The translations under genes were made by a program, and so were the position numbers. Shown piece after piece: positions 17,205 through 55,725 of a DNA stretch of 64,000 nucleotides (position 1 is its first letter; each line of letters opens with the position of its first letter). The stretch lies in NCBI GenBank assembly GCA_009869945.1, contig WIXG01000344.1, positions 17,525-81,524 of the forward strand. The letters are read 5' to 3'. The stretch is from Mesaphorura yosii (lineage: Eukaryota; Arthropoda; Collembola; Poduromorpha; Tullbergiidae). Under the pieces are notes generated by a model, which had not been told where the DNA came from, did not search any database, and worked only from the letters and a program-made list of their open reading frames with translations.

Positions 17205-17566
17205 AAAGTGGCTAAAGTTGATCCTCCATCCGCCTTGCGCCAGAAAAGTAAAGGTTTAGAAAAACTACTCGAATGCTTGACGTGACGACTAATCACACAT
17301 TGGAATGGAACTTATTTAACCATATGTGGTTGGAAATTTCTTTCTAGGATTTCCTGTAGAATATTGCGTAGCATTTTGGGTCGTATTGTTTAATTAATCA
17401 ATTAGTGAAATTAAGGTGAAATTGAAATGCTTATCCTTCAATTAACAAATTAAATTATGCAACAGCTCGGCAAATATTGAATATCTTGAAGTACTCGAAG
17501 GAACTTCATTCGGCAGCTCAAGCTTGGAAGGACAACATGTCAAAGTCGAAGTGAGGCTCTCAGATC

Positions 17567-18840
17567 ATGGAGTCTTCATCTTTGTCTTGGCTTATCCTGA
17601 TCTCGAAAGTATTTGGGCAATACCCAGCCGGTATTTTCAGCGGTCACCCCCGGACACGAATTCTTCACGCAATTTGGACCACTCTGGTTCTCGTATTTCA
17701 CGTGGTGTTCATTCAGACTTTGTTTGCAGCACAGTATACACTAAGAGCAACGCTGGAGCCAGAACACAACTTCGTGCTCAATCTGGGCAGTTTTCTGGTG
17801 TTGGTGCGATTCGCCATGTCGGCGCTGATTTATGCCACGTGGTTATACAGTACATGCAAATTTCGACGTGCCTTCGACGCAATGAGTGCGGTAAAAATCG
17901 GTTTTAGTCGTAAACCGCTGTCAGTGACAGCTAGCTTATGGTCAAAATGCCAAAATGTTTGCTGGGTTCTCATATGGGCAGCATACGCGGTTGTGAACTT
18001 GATTGTGGGCGGAACTGTGATTCGTGGCCCTTCGACCAATTACTGCAAAGATTACAGACCCGAATATTTTGCTGGTTTGAAGAACAGATCATGGATCGCG
18101 ATGTACTTGGATCTTAGCCACGAATCCCTACCGAAGTTGGCGACGGGCACAATGCCGCATATTTTCGGGCTTTTTCTGGGAGAAATCTTGGCCATCAATT
18201 TCGTTGTCTTGTTTGCGTACCAGATTAGGAGGCGCCTGTACGAATTGACTGAGGACATGGTCACTGCGAAAGCAAGCACTGCGGAACATATTTACCATCA
18301 GACTTTGCGTGTAAGGCGAGCGTTCTTCGCTTTCCAAGCCGCAGCTGGCCCGTTAATTATTGTCCAAATCAGCACATTCCTTCTGATGAGCACTATTTTG
18401 ACCTTTGTATCGGCATCGTTCTTCTTGAGTTCCACAGTTCGTATTATTTATGCTTTTCTCTTACCTGCTCTCTCGGTGTTCGAGATCCTAAAGGCCTGGG
18501 CACTGGCCAGCTGTGGGGAAAGGCTCACCGTGCAAGCGAAAGCTTTTAAATTCGCCGTTTTGAATGCAAGCATTGGTGGCTCCGGAATTAAATACGGAGC
18601 CGGTCACGAAAGTTTAGGCCGGCTACAAAAAATTGTGGACAGCGACGATATGAAGTTTCAACTGACTGGCAATGGGTACTTTGAACTCAATAAGAAAATG
18701 TTGACTTCTGTAAGTACTTAAGTACACATCTTAAGAAGTGCCAATTACTACACTCTTTAATGATTAACCATTTATTATAGGCTCTAGCAGCAATCGTGTC
18801 ATACAATGTGGTCATTGTTCAGTTTCAACTGGCCAACTAA
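17567..18840 (+). CDS. Gustatory receptor family protein, copy 1
   Basis: Two exons, 17567-18709 and 18781-18840, encode 400 residues. The protein is mostly hydrophobic with about seven likely membrane spans, and length and layout fit the insect gustatory/odorant receptor superfamily (7tm_7). The last exon encodes ALAAIVSYNVVIVQFQLAN, which carries the family signature TYxxxxxQF as SYNVVIVQF. A phase-0 intron sits just before this final exon, a feature conserved in arthropod gustatory receptors. These proteins form ligand-gated cation channels in chemosensory neurons; the ligand cannot be predicted. It is about half to two-thirds identical by eye to the next gene and shares its intron. Confidence 0.88.
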
Positions 18841-19084
18841 ATTCGTGATTTTCGTGCTTATCTTCAGTTCGGTGGAAGAAAAGGATAACTGAAGAAAATG
18901 AAGCCGAGACGAGGCGGCTAGGCCCACCAAGCGTTAAGAATTAAGACCAAACACTACAAAATCCCGGTGGGGCCCGGAAAATGGAGATTGCGGCACACTT
19001 CCCCGAAGACGAATGCAATCAAATCGTGCACAATTTTCCACGTTCTGTGCGCTGTTTCTAATTCCGTCCTTCATCAAGCATTCA

Positions 19085-19277
19085 CCTCACACTTAATCTC
19101 ATTTTCTGCGATTCCCTGCTGCTAAATGTCAAATTCATTCGTGTTTTCCTTCAGTGGGAAGTTCTTATCAGGTCCAGACGCAAAGGAGAAATGAGCGCTT
19201 TCTAACCCAAAATAAAACGAATTGACATTTTAATTATAATCTTAATAAAAATGTCGTGCTGGGTGAATTATTTCGCA
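19085..19277 (+). repeat. Duplicated receptor-flanking segment, copy B
   Basis: Second copy of the segment at 16991-17204. It lies about 245 bp after the first receptor's stop codon and about 490 bp before the second receptor's start. Confidence 0.75.
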
Positions 19278-19763
19278 ATCGCATGTTCTGTCGAAGGCAA
19301 TTAAGGGCTAAAGACTCCAACGGAGAAAATAGCATCTGAAACATTTGCTGAACGGGACCTGAAAAGTGCTTGGAATCGAAAAGATGCGAACCATAATCTG
19401 CAAAGCATTGTTACGGAAAATCCTTTACTCAAATGGCATTCGATCATTCTTGAATGTATACAATTCTGCATTGGTGATTGATTAGGTTGAACGTTTGCCC
19501 AGAAGTTGTATATTTAATCGATTTGCTTGTGGGTAATCCTAATTGCAATTAGAAGATTGACTGATTGACTCCTAACACATTTCATCCTTCGCCCCTCAAT
19601 TAGGAAATTAAAGTTGTGTAACAGCTGAATAAAGCAAACATTGTTCAGTGAATTCGTGAGTTGTGAATTTCGTAATATTGCAGCGGAAGGTTTACTTGAC
19701 AGCTCGCCCAGTCGCTCTTAGACGGCAAACCCGTTAAGTCCAGGCCAGATCAGTCGTCGAATT

Positions 19764-21028
19764 ATGGAGTCTTCGGCTTTATACCAGCTAATCTTAATCG
19801 CGAAGCTGTTTGGGCAATATCCAGCCGGTGTTTTCACCGGAAACCCGCGTACACGATTGTTTCACGCAATTTGGACCATTCTGATGGTGGGGTTTCATGC
19901 AGTATGTGTTCAAACCGTGTATGCAGCAATCTTCTCTCGAAGAGTAGCACTGAAACCAGAAGAGAACTTTTTGACCAATGTCGGCATCATTCTTGGATTC
20001 GTGCGATGCACGAGCTCCATTCTGATTCATGTCACATGGTTGTATGGTACTTTCAAATTTCGCCGTGTCATCAAAGGGTTGAATGATGTCACGTTTAAGG
20101 AAAATTTTAGCTCCAAACCGACAGCCTGCCGAATCTGGCCCACATACAGGAAGCTGTGCTGGGTTCTCACCTGGATTGTCTACGGGATTTTGAACGCGGT
20201 GATTGTCGGAAGTATCGTCCATGGCCCTAGCACCGCTAGTGGCATAAAGTACAGACTCACGTACGTTGCCAAGTTCAAGACCGGATCATGGATCATGGCG
20301 TATTTGGATCTTAGCACCACCACCGAATCCTTATCAAAACTGTTGGCGGTCATAATGTCGCACATATTCATGCTTTTGCTCTCTGAAATATTGACTATCA
20401 ATTGCACTGTGCAGACGGCCGGCCAAATTAGAAGGAAATTGCGGGAATTGACGGGAGATTTGACCACGGCAAAGCCAGACGCTTTGGAACATGTTTATCG
20501 TCAGACTTTGCGCTTGAGGGAAGTGTTCTTCGCACTCCAAGTCGCAGCAGGACCTTCGATTGTTGTCCAGATCGGCTCATTCGTTCTGCTTGGCACTATG
20601 TTTATTTTTGTGTCCGCATCTTTGTTATACACTACCGTAGCGCACCTTCTTTTTGCATTTACCATACCCATTCTGATGGGATTTGAAATGCTCAAGCCTT
20701 GGACGCTAGCACGCTGCGGGGAGGAGCTGACCGTCCAGGCGAAGGCATTCAAATTCGCTGTTTTGAGTGCAAACACCGACGACAGCAGATTTGGACACAA
20801 AAGTTTGGATCGATTGCAGAAAATTGTGCACAGCGATGACATGAAATTTCAGCTGACTGGCAGTGGATACTTTAAACTCAATAAGAGAATGCTGGCTTCA
20901 GTAAGTATACAGCGAGTTAATACGTTGCAATGCTTATAAAAGTTAATGCTCTCGTTTTGAATTAGGCGCTGGCAGCTGTAGTCTCCTACAATGTGGTGAT
21001 TGTTCAGTTTCAACTCTCAAGTCATTAA
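19764..21028 (+). CDS. Gustatory receptor family protein, copy 2
   Basis: Two exons, 19764-20900 and 20966-21028, encode 399 residues. It is a tandem paralogue of the preceding gene: both begin MESS, share FGQYPAG near residue 17, and share ELTVQAKAFKFAVL, DDMKFQLTGxGYF and the C-terminal VSYNVVIVQFQL. The phase-0 intron before the last exon is in the same place. Both copies are open and end normally, so both are probably functional. The N-terminal and extracellular-loop regions differ most, which would suit diverged ligand recognition, though that is inference. A possible polyadenylation signal AATAAA lies at 21248-21253. Confidence 0.88.
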
Positions 21029-47400: not shown

Positions 47401-48302
47401 CCTTTGACGTTTCATTTTCATGTGGACAGTTTCTTGATAATTTGTCACGTATAACCTACGCACGTAACTGAAGCTTCAGTTTATGGATGACAAGTTCTTG
47501 AATTTCTAATCAATAACTTCTGCTGCTAATAACACAACCACGTGTGTGTATGTACGCGATTGTCTCATCGAATGACCTTCCAGCTGCGACGACTGGCTCG
47601 GCCGCCAAAACGAAGTCAAGCGCAAGGTTTCAGTAAAGCAGCAATGCCGACAGTTGCGGCAACTGATGACTCAGTTCGTCGGCTTTGAGCTGAATGAAGG
47701 CTAGACTGTATCAGCAGTATCGGGTTTAAAGCGCTGAGCCAATAAATCCCCGGCTAATTTTTATGTTCTCACTCATTAAATGTGTCATGTAATTATGTTT
47801 ATGTATATGTGTGCCATTAGTCACTCTTCATTCGTGTTCAGCATTATTTTCAGCTAGTTTGCTTAGCAGTAGTGCTGTGCTACTAGTTACCAGTGACAAG
47901 AATTTGCTTTGTTACACACGACCCGGGTCTCGGTCTATTCAAACCACGGCCTTGCTGTGAATCCAGTCCTTTAACGCAGGTACCTCCACCTTCCAGTTGT
48001 GCTGTTTACAAGTAATTCTAATCCTGCTGTTATCTTATCTGTACTTTTACCTCAGTTCTTCGTACGTAAGTAAAGGATTTGGACGTGTGAAGCGGAATTA
48101 AGTTACTTAAGCAGACACGACTTGGCCCTCATTTCACTATCATTCGTCCATGCATGCGGTAAACATGTGCCTACACCTGACCGAGTTTGGTTTCTAACTG
48201 AAGAAGTTACTGATTCTGCTCTGCCTTCAATTCAGCCGATCAGCATTTGACACTGATACCTAGATTTAAATCTGTAACTCCAAACTACCGTGCTCTTTCA
48301 CA
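41429..48302. other. Long intergenic region
   Basis: Nearly 7 kb of AT-rich DNA between two divergent genes. It contains short simple repeats (CCACG units at 42957-42979 and a 14-bp minisatellite at 46060-46103) but no open frame with motifs or splice structure. Regulatory elements of both flanking genes may lie here. Confidence 0.45.
46060..46103. repeat. 14-bp minisatellite
   Basis: About three copies of CTTGATACTTGATG in tandem, itself made of two near-identical 7-mers. A related single copy GATGCTTGATACTGGATGC lies near 47148. Confidence 0.8.
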
Positions 48303-51300
48303 ATGTCAAGTCTTCTTAAAACGGTGCAACTCTCCAATGCACTTCGCCAATGTGTCCTTCTCCGCCGTGGATTGAGTTACACACAACAAATGCTTCAGAA
48401 TGACCATGAACACTTGCTCCAGAGAAGATATCAGCAAAAGCAGCAAGGCCTACTGCTGCAGACGCAGCAAGCGCAAGGTTCAAGGTGCTTCTCCAGTTCA
48501 AGCAAGACTCCGACGCAACAGGAGGTAATGTACATACATTGCAGCGTTTCTTGCTTATTTAATGTGGGTAGCTTGTCTGGGTCTGGTTAGTCTGGTGAAA
48601 TTTTCGATAAGATAACCGAGTTGAACTTTGATGTATTTAAGATCACGACTGCCAGTAAGACCAAAATCCAATCCACTTAACATGTCATAAACGCGCGCGT
48701 TCTTAATATATGAGTTTTTAGTTTGATTTTAATTAGAAAAAGTTCTTAAGAGTTAACGTGCCACACGCAGCGCAACGAATTGTTCTTCCATCGAGTCAAG
48801 GAAATGATTGGAATTAATTAAACCTCGTCAGTTATGAAAAATTCATTACGAATTCCCCTTTAAGCAGTCAACAGCTAGCAGGGGGTCAAAGCCACCTGAC
48901 ACACAAGCATGCTATGTCGGTTCACAAAATAACATGAGTATGACGTGGGCAGGATTGAATTGTTACCTGAGCCGATCCTACTTTACTAGCATAGAATACA
49001 ATTACGGCTACTTGTGAAAAACGCCGCGCTGGCTCATTGACTCAGATATTTACTGTTTACTCAACACGAGTGCAGTTTCGTATTCGCATGTTTCTTGGCA
49101 AGTTGACTTCCTCCTACGCCCTACACTTATATACTCATTCATCCGAATTTATTTGACAAAACAAAGTCACACATTAAGAAATGAAACGATACGCAAACAC
49201 TTCTGAGATCTGAGAGCCTGAGAACTTTAGGATTCAAACGAAGAAGGAATGTTGCAGTTCCTCCGACTTGATTTTGATTCAGTTTACATTGCTTACAGCC
49301 TTCGCTCTTTTTTTAAAGGACAATCCGCAAGCTAGTCCCGATTCACGCATGCTACGCTCAATTGTGAGCACAGTTTATCAAAATCCATTGAAAACTTGAA
49401 CAATTACAACTTAATTGTCTCAAAAATGCCAGCACAATGCTAATTGAAGGTTGTATAACACGCTACACGCACAGACTGCAGACGCATGAACAAGAATTTG
49501 TTATAATCATCAAAGGCGTGGCGAGACAATAAGCTCATCAAGAATGTAAACAAGTATTGCAAATAGCTAAATTCATTCAGCATTCCCCATTTCTTGCAGT
49601 TTTGCTGAAACTTTGCTAATTCAGCATTAAAAATCCCGGATAAAGACAAAATCTGATTCTGAGCGACTGAGGCTTGCGGCAAGGTCTTTCTTCCTTTTGT
49701 GTTGTGCTCTGCTGTGCTGATATGCTGTTCATTCATGAGTTGGCTTCCTAGCCATTCGCTTTTCGCGAGACAAGTGTGACGAATTTGATCCATTAATTAT
49801 AATTTGTCGCTTCCGTAGTCTACGTAGTCTTGGACCTTTTGTATTTATGCTGAGTTCATGCTGACTCGCTAGCTAACTTGACTTTACAATGCTTTGCCTA
49901 TTTGCTTTGAATTTCAGCAATACAAGGAACAGCAACAGCGGAATGAAGAAGCCGGTGTCCTGACTGAACTGGTTCGTGACTTTTTGGACCCCGCAGGATT
50001 CTACGAAGCTGTGCGACATATTGGAATCGATTTCTTCACCGGTGTTCCCGATTCACTCTTGAAAGGTCACCTTAATAGTGAATAGTTAACAATGCTTACA
50101 TGCAAAAATTAGTAGACTATTCTGGGACGATTCATGAACGATTTCATTACAAGCGCCAAAACATATTAAATGAAGAGGGGTCGAAAACATCGACTTTTAA
50201 TGTTTTAATTGGCTGACACTCGACAGACGTCAAAAGAAGTGGAAAAGGAAAAGCGCTTAACCTTTCACGTCATCATTTCCTTTAACGCGTCAGCTGAAAA
50301 TGTTCGAATCAATTATTCATCCTTTCAGTTAACGATTTGCCGTTGCCCACGAACAAGTCATTTCCCTTTTGGCTGGAGATCTTGGAAACTTTTTACTTCT
50401 CACATTAACACAACATAACGTAGTAAACATTAATTTAAGACAAGACAGTCGGAGTGCTCGAGAAAGCAAACAAACATCGCAAAGTTAGCGAGCAGCGTGA
50501 GCGTTCTGTGTGATTCTTCCAACCGAAAGCAAGCAAAATAGCGAAATAGCAGCCACAAAGAAAGGAAATAAATTGAGAAGATTCGATGAAGTGATCTGTA
50601 CAAATTACAAGGCACTTTACGGCTCACAAGAAGTTGTTGGTTGTTGTTGTCGGTGGGAGTTGACGTTGACGCTCTGACGTGCTTTCGTTTTCGCTCAGCG
50701 AAGCAACCTCAATCAAGAATCAAGACTCTTCGTGTTGTCGAAATTCAATCTTTGCGAGTCGCTTCAAAGGAAGCAGAAACTTACAAATTGCCAGAGCTCG
50801 TTTTTCATAGCAGAAGCCCAGATTTTCGTTTTTCTAATTGATGAGAAGCAAAGCGAGAACGAAATGCGGAGGTGGGCAGATGAGTTTTAGGTTTCCTTTC
50901 ATTTTATTCGCATCAAAGTTACGGTCCCTTGAAGATCGAGTTTCTTAGCGCTACGTTATTTACTAGTCTCCATCCTATCGATGTCCTCGTTAATGAAATT
51001 CCACTTAAAATCGTCAGATTTTTGCGGTTACGTGAATGACATGGTCCCAGCTTCGAACCACGTCATCACCTGCAACGAAGGAGCGGCCGTGGCGTTGGCT
51101 GCGGGCTACCACCTGGCAACGGGAAAGGCGTCGATGGTGTACATGCAGAATTCTGGACTTGGAAACGCAGTGAATCCGCTGGTCAGCCTGTGCGCGCCTG
51201 AAGTATACGCCATTCCGATGCTGGTGCTCGTCGGCTGGCGTGGAGAGCCTGGAAAGCGCGATGAACCGCAGCACCGCGTTCAAGGACAAGTCACACCAGG

Positions 51301-54300
51301 ACTTTTGGGTAAGAAATACCCGACTCGTGGCGCGGCCGCGGGCTGAAGTTTATGGACCGGAAAAATTATAACCTGTGCGTATCAGGATGACAGCGGGCCA
51401 TAACTTAATTTCTGTAACATGAATTTTAATAATGATCGAATGAGAAAGTTCTCATGAATATTAGATTAAAGCTCTGCTCGTGTCGCTGCTATGTGTAATG
51501 TAATGTAATGGAATTTAAGCCTCAGAGTAATGCAATGCGTTGCCTTTTGGCTTTCCATCCTGCGAAGTTTGGGAAGTATTGTTCCAAGAAGGCAGAAGAA
51601 GTCATTCAAAATCACATTATCACCGCAGACCGGGCCGGGCTCGCCGTCGCGTTGTTATCTCGGCACAATCTCGACAATTCAATTTGTTATGCTCAACTTT
51701 AACTTTATTTTACAGCCAAGACAAGAGACAAGAGCAGAAAAGTTTTACTCAAGCATAAAGAAATGGCTACTTAGGTCCATTATGGCTTTGGTACAGCACT
51801 TTCACTGTTTTGCCGTTTTATGTCTATGACTTGTGATGTGAATGAAGAAGTCCGGTCAACAGTCGACGGCCCATTTGAATTTCCACGATTGTTGTTCCAA
51901 ATGAAGGCAGATAAGGCTAAGATTCGTGTAGTTCTCAGTTATGGTCCGGAAAGGGCAAAACACTAAAACCGTATGAACTACAATGGCTCGGGAGAAGTGT
52001 AAGTAGAGTAAAAGGAAGGAAAACGTACGCAGCGGCCAAGATTTCCTTTCCGGTCCCGCCAGCCAGCTTTAGTCCTAGTCAAATGCAGAGTACATAAAAA
52101 CAGTTGTTACTTTGTTACTTTCTGCAGTTGGACAATAGCGAGGAGAGTTTTTGGAATTTTGCCCAAATTACTCTATCAAGACGTTAATCTATCATTCTCA
52201 GTCTCCTTAAATGATGTTTTTGATGTATGAAGTCAAGAAAGATCAAACACACAAGTGGCACAACAGAGTGATCTTTGAAGTACGAGATTACATGCTAGAT
52301 TTTGTTGTCAGAAGCGTAGATATGTTTTGCGTAGTTCATTAGCTTTTATCCAGAATTTGAAAATTTGAAAACATGTAGGCATTTGGCCTTTCCAAGTTCG
52401 TAAACACTAGAAATGAATGAAAAAAGTTCAGATTCTCATTTCATGCGCAATTGATTCTGAAGTTGAGTCTCTAGAAATATGGCGCGTTGGACAACAAAAA
52501 CAAAACAAGTGACGACAACTCGAACTGAATTCCTTTGACGTATTATTTTTGCGAATAAACATTAACCGTTCACGCGCTTTTGACACTCCCTCAATTCGGA
52601 ACATAATTAAGATGAATTTGCCACCGTTTGCCATATTTTTAGCCGCACTTGGAATCCCGTTCCAACCACTTCCCGACTACATCGAAGGAGCACAACAGGC
52701 ACTCTACACGGCGAAGAAACACTTGGAGAAAACTGGAACCCCGTACGCCCTGCTCGTCAAGCGACAGACATTCACTCCGTATAAGATGAAAAAGTCAAGC
52801 GCCCTCGACTTTGGCGAAGAGTTGAAAATCGGCCGGGAAGTTGCCATCAACGCCGTCATTGATGCGGCACATGACCGCGACGTGATTGTTGGCACGACGG
52901 GAATGTTGTCCAGGTTTGTTCGTTTGTCCAGCCTCTTAACAGACAGGTTGACATGTATCGAGATCGTGGTTATCTTGGAACTCTCCTGACTGGTTGACAT
53001 TTTGCAGGGAATTGTTTGAGCTCCGCAGAATGCGAGAAGAGGGACACGAGCGTGACTTCTTGACGGTTGGCTGCATGGGACATGCTTCGTCCATCGCACT
53101 GGGTATAGCCACCCAAAAGAAGAAGAGGCGTGTCATCTGCTTGGACGGCGACGGAGCCGTTCTCATGCACATGGGCTCACTGGCTACAATTGCTCAGTAA
53201 GTTTGTATTCAGATTACGCACTTATGCAAAATATGCGGTCGAATTCTAACTATCTTTAACTTTTGGGCACGGATAGAGCACCAAGGCATAATTAATTTCT
53301 TTGCTTTTACTGCTGCGCGCGTCATCATCACATCTTCTAATAGACCCCAGAATTTTCTCGAAAGTATAATGAAATTCAGCGCTGCTTTCTGAAGCAGAGA
53401 ATAACAAGCGGCATGCATTATTCCTGGAAAGAATAGCTTTCACTTGTCATTGTCAACGGCCTGTAAGACGTCTGTCTTTGTTGACTTGATGTTATTCTTC
53501 AGGGATATATTAGGAATTCAAAACCTTCCAGATTTCTGACACAAAAATGCTTGAAGAGAGAAGAAAATCGAATCCACAAGTACGAGTACATTTACGCTCT
53601 AATGACTATACAATGAATGACATGACGTGTTTTGTGTTGTACTTCTCTTCTGGCTTCGGTTCACCAATTTCCAACACATCCATCCCAAAATATCTGGAAA
53701 TTTTCCATTGCTGCGTCTTCCAGGCGAAGAAACTTTTTCCACGGTGATCGCGAATCTCGACCGCCACCGCGACCACAAAAATAAGCTGCTTCCTACCACC
53801 GGTTTGCTATTTTGTACTACGAAAATATTTTCTTTCCATCGTTGGCGTGTTTGCATGTGTGGGATTACGAAAATTGCATTATCTTACCACGAAATGATCG
53901 AGCGGCTTGTCAAGCCGAGATTCACATCTAACTCAGGAACGGGTGCTATGAAATACTACGAATGAACAAACCCAAGGCCGAAATAAGGACTGCATAATGC
54001 AATTGTGCCGAAATCCAGTCCAGATACCAGTTCGAGGAATCAAAGCCAAACTTCTAGACGCAACGCGAAGTTAGAAGCTGCATTGCACCTGCTTTGCTTG
54101 AGAGATATCACAAGCATATTTTCTATTTTCACCCAAATGCGAATTTACTTACCAAAATGATGATGAAGCGCTAGCTCCGTCTTCCCCAGTAAAATATTCA
54201 TGAAATTCATGTTTGAAAGAAGGAAGAGGCAGTTGTTACTTTGTGACAACATAGAAATGAAAATGAATGAGGCTTTCTGCGATTCTATGCAATCCTGCTT

Positions 54301-55725
54301 TAACATTTTGACTTTCTTTCGCTTTAGTTTGTGACGTTACCGGAAAAAGGTAAGAATTTCATGCGAACGACTGCAAATGTTTGTGCTTACTCGCACTCGC
54401 ATGGGTGGTGTTCAGGATGTTTTCCTGTTCCAGAATTATTTTGTCACTCCTGCGTTCGTGCATAACTGCGCTGTATGAATGTTGTGCCTTGCGAGTGAGA
54501 AACCTGCTTTAATAATGCCTGCGAGAGGAGAACGAATGACAATCCGGAAATTGGTTTCAAGATGTTTTCCCCGATTCTTAACACCTGCAGGTCTAACTCC
54601 CTGTGATTATTTGTGTTTCCGCTTCTCTACGATCGCATTGGTATTTTTTTGCATGCATGTAGCATCTCAGAAAGATTTACCACACTAAAGATCGGTTATA
54701 TGTATAGAATATTGATCGTGATTATTACGTGATACGACACGAGCGTGAAGGATGGACAGGGCGTAGTACATGCTTTTTACGTTGGATGACAATTTCTCGG
54801 CGTGGGCCATTCTTGTGGAAGCAGGCAGAGCAGAATTTTATCCTTCTGAGATTCAAGCGAGGCTGTGTTAACGATAGAGGCGGCGAGCCTTACCGCTTGC
54901 TTGACAGTTGAAGGCGTTCAGCGTTCGATCAGCTGTCAGGATTCATTTGAAGATATTATTATTAATGCATCTTTTATAACCTCGTGAGTCGCAGCATAGC
55001 ATAGCATAACGCACATCACCCAGCCGCTGTCAGTATCGTGCATCCGAAGACTTGATGAAATGCACAATTTGCGGACCTGATACTTGCATGTACATTTTAA
55101 GAGAAAATATTTTTGGGGCAATGAGTTCTGAAATTATGCAAACCATTAATCTTGTGTCCAGCGAGTCCAGCAGCTTATGATTAAGTAGAGAATTGAATTT
55201 CCGGTTTCCCATATTTCTCAAATATTTTGTCCCTAGCTGTATGTCCACGGGATCATAAATAAGACGTCAGGTGTCAGGCCATAAATTAACTCAAACAAAT
55301 GCCCGCCGTTCCGCGTTTAATCAGCCCATCAGCCCAGACAGATCCAGTCCATCAATCAATATCTTACAAACCTGCTTCACTGCTCTTTTTGTTTCAGGCT
55401 CTCGCCGCCGAACTTCCTCCACATCGTTTTCAACAACGGCGCACATGACTCTGTCGGTGGACAGCCCAGCGCAGCTGCAAACGACTTCTTCTCCATTCCA
55501 CAACTCGCTCTGGCGTCCGGCTACCGCTCTGCGATCACAACCAATACCATTGAAGAAACACAAGTCGCAGTCCGCAATATCGTTCAGAATAATGTCGTCG
55601 GACCTAACTTGATTGAAGTGAAGATTTCGCGAGGCTCCAGGAAGAATCTTGGACGACCGAGCCGCACTCCGATTCAGAACAAGATTGATTTCATGCACTT
55701 CTTGGCTATTAACGGGGATTCTTAA
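48303..55725 (+). CDS. Phosphonopyruvate decarboxylase, mitochondrial-type leader
   Basis: Six exons: 48303-48524, 49918-50065, 51018-51308, 52643-52913, 53008-53196 and 55398-55725, joining in frame to 482 residues. The first exon encodes an Arg/Ser/Leu/Gln-rich, acid-poor leader (MSSLLKTVQLSNALRQ...RCFSSSSK) typical of mitochondrial import. The enzyme starts near residue 100: FYEAVRHIGIDFFTGVPDSLLKDF, then the catalytic Glu of the ThDP fold in TCNEGAAVALAAGYHLATGK (E144), QNSGLGNAVNPL and GWRGEPGKRDEPQH. The ThDP/Mg site runs from GDG (358-360) to NN (386-387), followed by GAHDSVGGQ, diagnostic of phosphonopyruvate decarboxylase rather than acetolactate synthase or sulfopyruvate decarboxylase. 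It converts phosphonopyruvate to phosphonoacetaldehyde and CO2, the committing step of aminoethylphosphonate synthesis. The exon 2 donor is a weak GTCACC. No mutase or transaminase gene is seen nearby. Confidence 0.93.

Follow-up and report, generated by a model that had tools for sequence, protein, structure and literature searches.

How does a gene for phosphonopyruvate decarboxylase (PPD) come to stand in an arthropod genome, and what would the enzyme do there? The locus lies within a stretch of 64,000 nucleotides of contig WIXG01000344.1 from the Mesaphorura yosii assembly (the window), in which a first-pass annotation, made from the letters alone, had described a spliced PPD gene and had read it as a sign of carbon–phosphorus (C–P) bond synthesis. 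Our analysis lends support to that reading, since genes for phosphoenolpyruvate (PEP) mutase and 2-aminoethylphosphonate (AEP) transaminase are present in the same genome. PPD very probably represents step two of a complete three-step pathway of AEP synthesis encoded in an arthropod nuclear genome.

The PPD gene is intact and occupies positions 48303–55725 of the window on the plus strand, from an ATG at 48303 to a stop codon ending at 55725. The model encodes 482 amino acids in six exons without internal stops (Table 1), and its five introns, of 1393, 952, 1334, 94 and 2201 bases, are all of the GT–AG type; the boundaries are the same as those first annotated. An in-frame TAA is found at 48267, upstream of the ATG, and the G+C content is 52.9% in the exons versus 40.5% in the introns. 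Four splice combinations are free of stops, giving 477, 479, 480 or 482 amino acids. We chose the donor at 52913 since it produces the junction TGMLSRELFE, which matches the prokaryotic PPDs; this choice leaves the proteins of 479 and 482 amino acids. These differ only in the start of exon 2 (49927 versus 49918), outside the conserved domain, and the longer form was chosen arbitrarily. Exon 1, outside the conserved domain, is a less certain prediction than the other exons, with only an open frame, splice sites and the stop upstream to define it.

By family model and motifs, the gene product is a phosphonopyruvate decarboxylase, a thiamine diphosphate (ThDP)-dependent enzyme. The protein matches TIGR03297, the NCBIfam equivalog model for this enzyme, at 462.6 bits (E = 8e-139, cut-off 312.5), over model positions 1–360 of 360. 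Near-invariant columns, defined as those at least 95% conserved among 87 PPDs from prokaryote, plasmid, phage and viral-contig loci, are retained in 72 of 73 cases, the sole exception being S398, which replaces a threonine. The catalytic-glutamate motif CNEG (E144), GDG...NN, NNGAHDSVGGQ and DEPQH are all intact, bearing out the earlier statement that the ThDP-enzyme motifs and the GAHDSVGGQ signature are preserved.

Table 1. Exons of the PPD gene and its downstream signal, in window coordinates.
Feature	Position	Strand	Remarks
PPD exon 1	48303..48524	+	Start codon and basic leader, first 28 amino acids without acidic residues; open frame, upstream in-frame stop, GT donor; outside the region common to prokaryotic PPD
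PPD exon 2	49918..50065	+	Conserved domain begins here, TGVPDSLLK; start at 49927 equally possible
PPD exon 3	51018..51308	+	Catalytic-Glu motif NEG, QNSGLGN, WRGEPG, DEPQH
PPD exon 4	52643..52913	+	A second donor, after 52907, keeps the frame open; 52913 agrees with homologues
PPD exon 5	53008..53196	+	SRELFE, VGCMGHASSIALG, ThDP-binding GDGA; Pfam TPP_enzyme_C match
PPD exon 6	55398..55725	+	FNNGAHDSVGGQ, LGRP, stop codon
Polyadenylation-type signal AATAAA	55766..55771	+	3' of the PPD stop

The two partner enzymes that the first-pass annotation had suggested looking for are both encoded elsewhere in the genome. The PEP mutase gene, on the minus strand of contig C27, consists of six exons (five introns) encoding 327 amino acids. 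Its product scores 388.9 bits against TIGR02320 (cut-off 319.55) and carries the EDKxxPK motif as EDKVFPKTNS. It is identical at 205 of 266 residues (77%) to the PDB chain 1m1b/1pym, which we take to be the PEP mutase of the mussel Mytilus edulis, and at all ten of ten compared positions, chosen by us as presumably belonging to the active site. EDKxFPKTNS is common to both proteins, and in the arthropod protein 34 residues precede the aligned region. The AEP transaminase gene, on the minus strand of contig C284, has three exons (two introns) encoding 387 amino acids, and its product exceeds the cut-offs of NF010006 (413.8 versus 296 bits) and TIGR03301 (384.8 versus 360.8 bits). The frames beside these two genes look animal by eye, and presumably encode beta-glucuronidase-like and SREBP-like proteins.

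Two further matches to the PEP mutase family were seen. A gene on contig C534 had the highest-scoring single match to Pfam (244.5 bits), yet it reached only 23.3 bits against the TIGR02320 cut-off of 319.55 and was dropped as a PEP mutase. It encodes a single-frame protein of 279 amino acids belonging to the PEP-mutase/isocitrate-lyase superfamily (L017 3309–4148, minus strand), which reaches no NCBIfam cut-off (best 56.4 versus 353). The frames on contig C91 (L018 2288–3975, minus strand) resemble, by eye, a spliced isocitrate lyase, a glyoxylate-cycle enzyme that most animals do not have.

In the pathway suggested by the three genes, PEP mutase would rearrange phosphoenolpyruvate to phosphonopyruvate, an unfavourable step. 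PPD would then remove CO2 irreversibly, pulling the first step forward and yielding phosphonoacetaldehyde, and the transaminase would aminate the latter to AEP, which would probably be placed on glycans and/or lipids in the manner of phosphoethanolamine. AEP synthesis is the natural reading of such a gene set, because PPD renders the uphill PEP mutase step effectively irreversible. From the gene models, families and conserved residues observed here, we infer the expression, activity, direction and final acceptor of the pathway. The leaders examined, of 39 amino acids in PEP mutase and 28 in PPD, are both basic and without acidic residues, suggesting that the first two steps may be mitochondrial; the AEP transaminase model shows no evident leader. 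As for the acceptor, the available text of a 2019 review describes the routes of AEP transfer onto glycans as not known (PMC6994554).

The likely product of the pathway has been reported from arthropods before. AEP was identified by NMR in male blue crabs, in a paper that also cites its presence in other crabs (PMC1940318), and the N-glycans of locust apolipophorin III carry AEP, as cited from 1993 (PMC6994554, PMC6935376). In the accessible parts of these papers AEP is known chemically and the genes are not named (PMC1940318, PMC6994554); in the arthropod described here AEP is a predicted product. A comparable gene set was published in 2013 for the coral Acropora digitifera, in which the genes for PPD, PEP mutase and AEP transaminase have 6, 7 and 4 introns, respectively (PMC3640398). 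The coral and the arthropod thus have the same three enzymes, all encoded by intron-bearing genes in an animal nuclear genome, with 5, 5 and 2 introns in the latter. The earlier view, put forward for terrestrial arthropods, that phosphonate biosynthesis is undescribed is not supported in the light of the crab, locust and coral reports, as far as their available text goes. The coral decarboxylase is presented as an orthologue of its counterpart in Bacteroides fragilis, and the genomes named in the part of that paper at hand are those of Nematostella, Hydra, Drosophila, human and Arabidopsis (PMC3640398). Among the Bacteroidota, the PPD (AepY) of the Segatella copri plasmid NZ_CP085933.1 is 50.1% identical over 99% of the query domain. 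It adjoins a PEP mutase gene in a bacterial cluster, with a phosphonoacetaldehyde reductase gene after PPD and polysaccharide-type genes around, and, unlike the arthropod PPD, it has neither introns nor a leader.

The history of the genes was approached through PEP mutase and PPD separately. The PEP mutase tree has 25 rows, comprising the arthropod and mussel proteins and 23 of the 119 hits of at least 240 amino acids. These 23 are the complete set of 11 with an identity of 50% or higher, in which one viral contig is counted twice, plus 12 drawn from the remaining 108. The arthropod protein and 1m1b/1pym group together with a support of 97/96, and the path between them is 0.38, versus 0.92 to the nearest other row. 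The best prokaryotic identity is 62%, within a sparse sample of prokaryotes made up of plasmid records, loci retrieved with PPD and loci on viral contigs, with chromosomes at large outside the comparison. Because of the grouping with the mussel enzyme and this 62% ceiling, we favour vertical descent of PEP mutase in animals, going back at least to the last ancestor shared by molluscs and arthropods.

The PPD relatives found are from prokaryotic, plasmid, phage-record and viral-contig sources only, and are 54–55% identical or less among the best matches listed. They include the best 80 of 591 confirmed matches (596 matched) from bacterial and archaeal genome contigs, together with plasmid, phage and viral loci. 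In a tree of 56 rows (87 relatives of at least 330 amino acids, 55 after thinning, plus the query), the arthropod protein forms a long branch (0.93) inside no starred clade; it groups loosely with a Nomurabacteria sequence (90/46), and the nearest sequence by path is from Woesearchaeota. This placement argues against a recent acquisition from any of the groups sampled, and the tree is compatible with old inheritance as well as with old transfer. In the latter case, a prokaryotic PPD would have entered an animal ancestor or the arthropod lineage long ago, gained introns and joined a vertically inherited PEP mutase, an account that concerns the origin only and is compatible with a function in AEP synthesis. 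The exclusively prokaryotic, plasmid, phage and viral-contig origin of the relatives, in a comparison that holds no animal PPD, and the loose Nomurabacteria grouping are in its favour. However, the branch is long and in no starred clade, and the six introns of the Acropora PPD and its Nematostella counterpart, as described in the available part of PMC3640398, fit an older animal gene. We regard an old transfer of PPD as less likely than not, though a serious contender. The AEP pathway as such is most likely old in animals, on the PEP mutase evidence only.

Phage and viral records contain several relatives of these genes. Searches of viral contigs gave no match with PPD alone, and none that was confirmed with PEP mutase alone. 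The IMG/VR contig IMGVR_UViG_3300046004_001116 (85,919 bases; L113 3077–7586) has adjoining open reading frames (ORFs) for PEP mutase, PPD, methyltransferase-like, nucleotidyltransferase-like and AEP-transaminase-like proteins, an apparent phosphonate cassette. The methyltransferase and nucleotidyltransferase were named by eye, and the transaminase-like ORF is 36% identical to the arthropod transaminase. The PEP mutase of this contig sits on a long branch as the sister of the animal pair (90/94). Among the 38 IMG/VR loci from the PPD alignment search, 37 (L114–L150) cover the 384-residue query incompletely, in most cases between residues 3–22 and 300–335, within about 700 bases. They look like shortened ThDP-enzyme relatives, and at least eight of them also carry PEP-mutase-like ORFs. 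A gut record labelled 'Bacteriophage sp.', MT836947.1 (L031 1501–2571, plus strand), contains a PPD relative with 43.9% identity over 95% of the query. In the tree this relative falls among the Bacteroidota on a long branch, and the phage record may here contain bacterial DNA.

No report of an AEP gene set, or of PPD or PEP mutase genes, in an arthropod was found in the literature searched, which did not include subscription papers or sequence databases, and public annotations may well exist; the new element may thus be the AEP gene set in an arthropod. Tentatively, we propose that some arthropods kept an ancestral animal AEP pathway, partly mitochondrial through the import of PEP mutase and PPD, and that this pathway would account for the AEP found in tissues of crabs and on glycoproteins of locusts; phosphonate in the present lineage may replace phosphoethanolamine on glycans or lipids. 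The three-gene set may explain how some arthropods make the AEP reported from crabs and locusts. It lets one ask which arthropods make phosphonates and what role AEP has in membranes and glycoproteins, and it offers single-gene knockouts for testing function. One can also ask whether the trait dates back to early animals, with repeated losses since, the decarboxylase being unreported from Drosophila in the available text of PMC3640398.

Several points weigh against AEP synthesis by an old animal pathway, and the first of these concern its direction. If the genes served salvage, they would break down dietary AEP or phosphonopyruvate for phosphorus, as proposed for bdelloid rotifers. A phosphonoacetaldehyde hydrolase, PhnX, would make the AEP route degradative, and PhnW-type transaminases are often catabolic and run in that direction too, which would suit salvage. 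A single search, made exon by exon, found no match to PhnX (TIGR01422) in the genome; among the control genomes it returned matches for 13 of 14, none of them over the cut-off. The rotifers, likewise microscopic animals with PPD and AEP transaminase transcripts, are described as having a foreign AEP transaminase or PPD together with phosphonoacetaldehyde hydrolase transcripts, and these genes were read as a means of phosphonate use (PMC3499245, available part). The arthropod, by contrast, has PEP mutase, the maker of C–P bonds, and no hydrolase was found in it. We consider salvage improbable. The remaining points touch on the gene set itself and its history. The three genes lie unclustered on three separate contigs, and the AEP transaminase falls just under a third model, TIGR02326 (392.7 versus 400.8 bits). 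Our assignment of 1m1b/1pym to the mussel found no confirmation in the literature search. The nearest prokaryotic kin of PEP mutase are from Burkholderia and Nitrospira and differ from those of PPD, so the two enzymes need not share one history. The coral paper states, in its accessible text, that the decarboxylase was not found in other metazoan genomes, Drosophila among those surveyed (PMC3640398). A lipid acceptor is made less likely by the description of arthropods as having ceramide phosphoethanolamine, and of molluscs and cnidarians as having its AEP analogue (PMC9174665, in part).

That the gene encodes another ThDP decarboxylase is very improbable. Sulfopyruvate decarboxylase, a ThDP enzyme of the same superfamily, would be the obvious candidate, and PPD does match its beta and alpha models at 107.8 and 84.2 bits. 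These scores are, however, far below the respective cut-offs of 221.5 (TIGR03846) and 147.95 (TIGR03845), while the TIGR03297 score is far over its own, and the pathway partners are phosphonate enzymes. A sulfopyruvate decarboxylase identity is thus rejected on the model scores.

The surroundings of PPD are eukaryotic. To its left, frames match PTPA, the IER family and a 7tm_7 chemoreceptor, and to its right, the TFIIIC subunit Tau95 and uricase. The assembly, of 93.0 Mb in 1127 contigs, contains 61 matches to 7tm_7 (gustatory-receptor family) and 66 to Chitin_bind_4 (cuticle domain), counted as exon-level matches and not as genes; the 14 control genomes, all prokaryotic, contain none. We take both families to be restricted to arthropods or their near kin, and the host is accordingly read as an arthropod, in agreement with the first-pass view of the contig. 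For insect odorant receptors (PF02949), neither the genome nor the controls produced a match, which makes this a weak negative. COX1 was likewise without a match, and an rRNA probe returned nothing, a negative that carries no weight. Bacterial contamination of the assembly, which the prokaryotic nature of the closest available PPD sequences might suggest and which had been called unlikely from the start, is scarcely credible and is ruled out by the introns of PPD, their G+C content relative to the exons and the eukaryotic genes on both sides, while PEP mutase and AEP transaminase, on other contigs, are also spliced.

The window also holds two long single-frame chemoreceptor-like genes in tandem (17555–20936, plus strand), with similar C-terminal ends. 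The second passes the Pfam 7tm_7 threshold (34.2 versus 26.6 bits), and no Pfam family matches the first at 0.001. Elsewhere in the genome, a 505-amino-acid frame on contig C302 (L019 2532–4049, plus strand) comes near the oxalyl-CoA decarboxylase models (best 509.4 versus a cut-off of 557), and could represent either an animal 2-hydroxyacyl-CoA lyase or a genuine oxalate enzyme.

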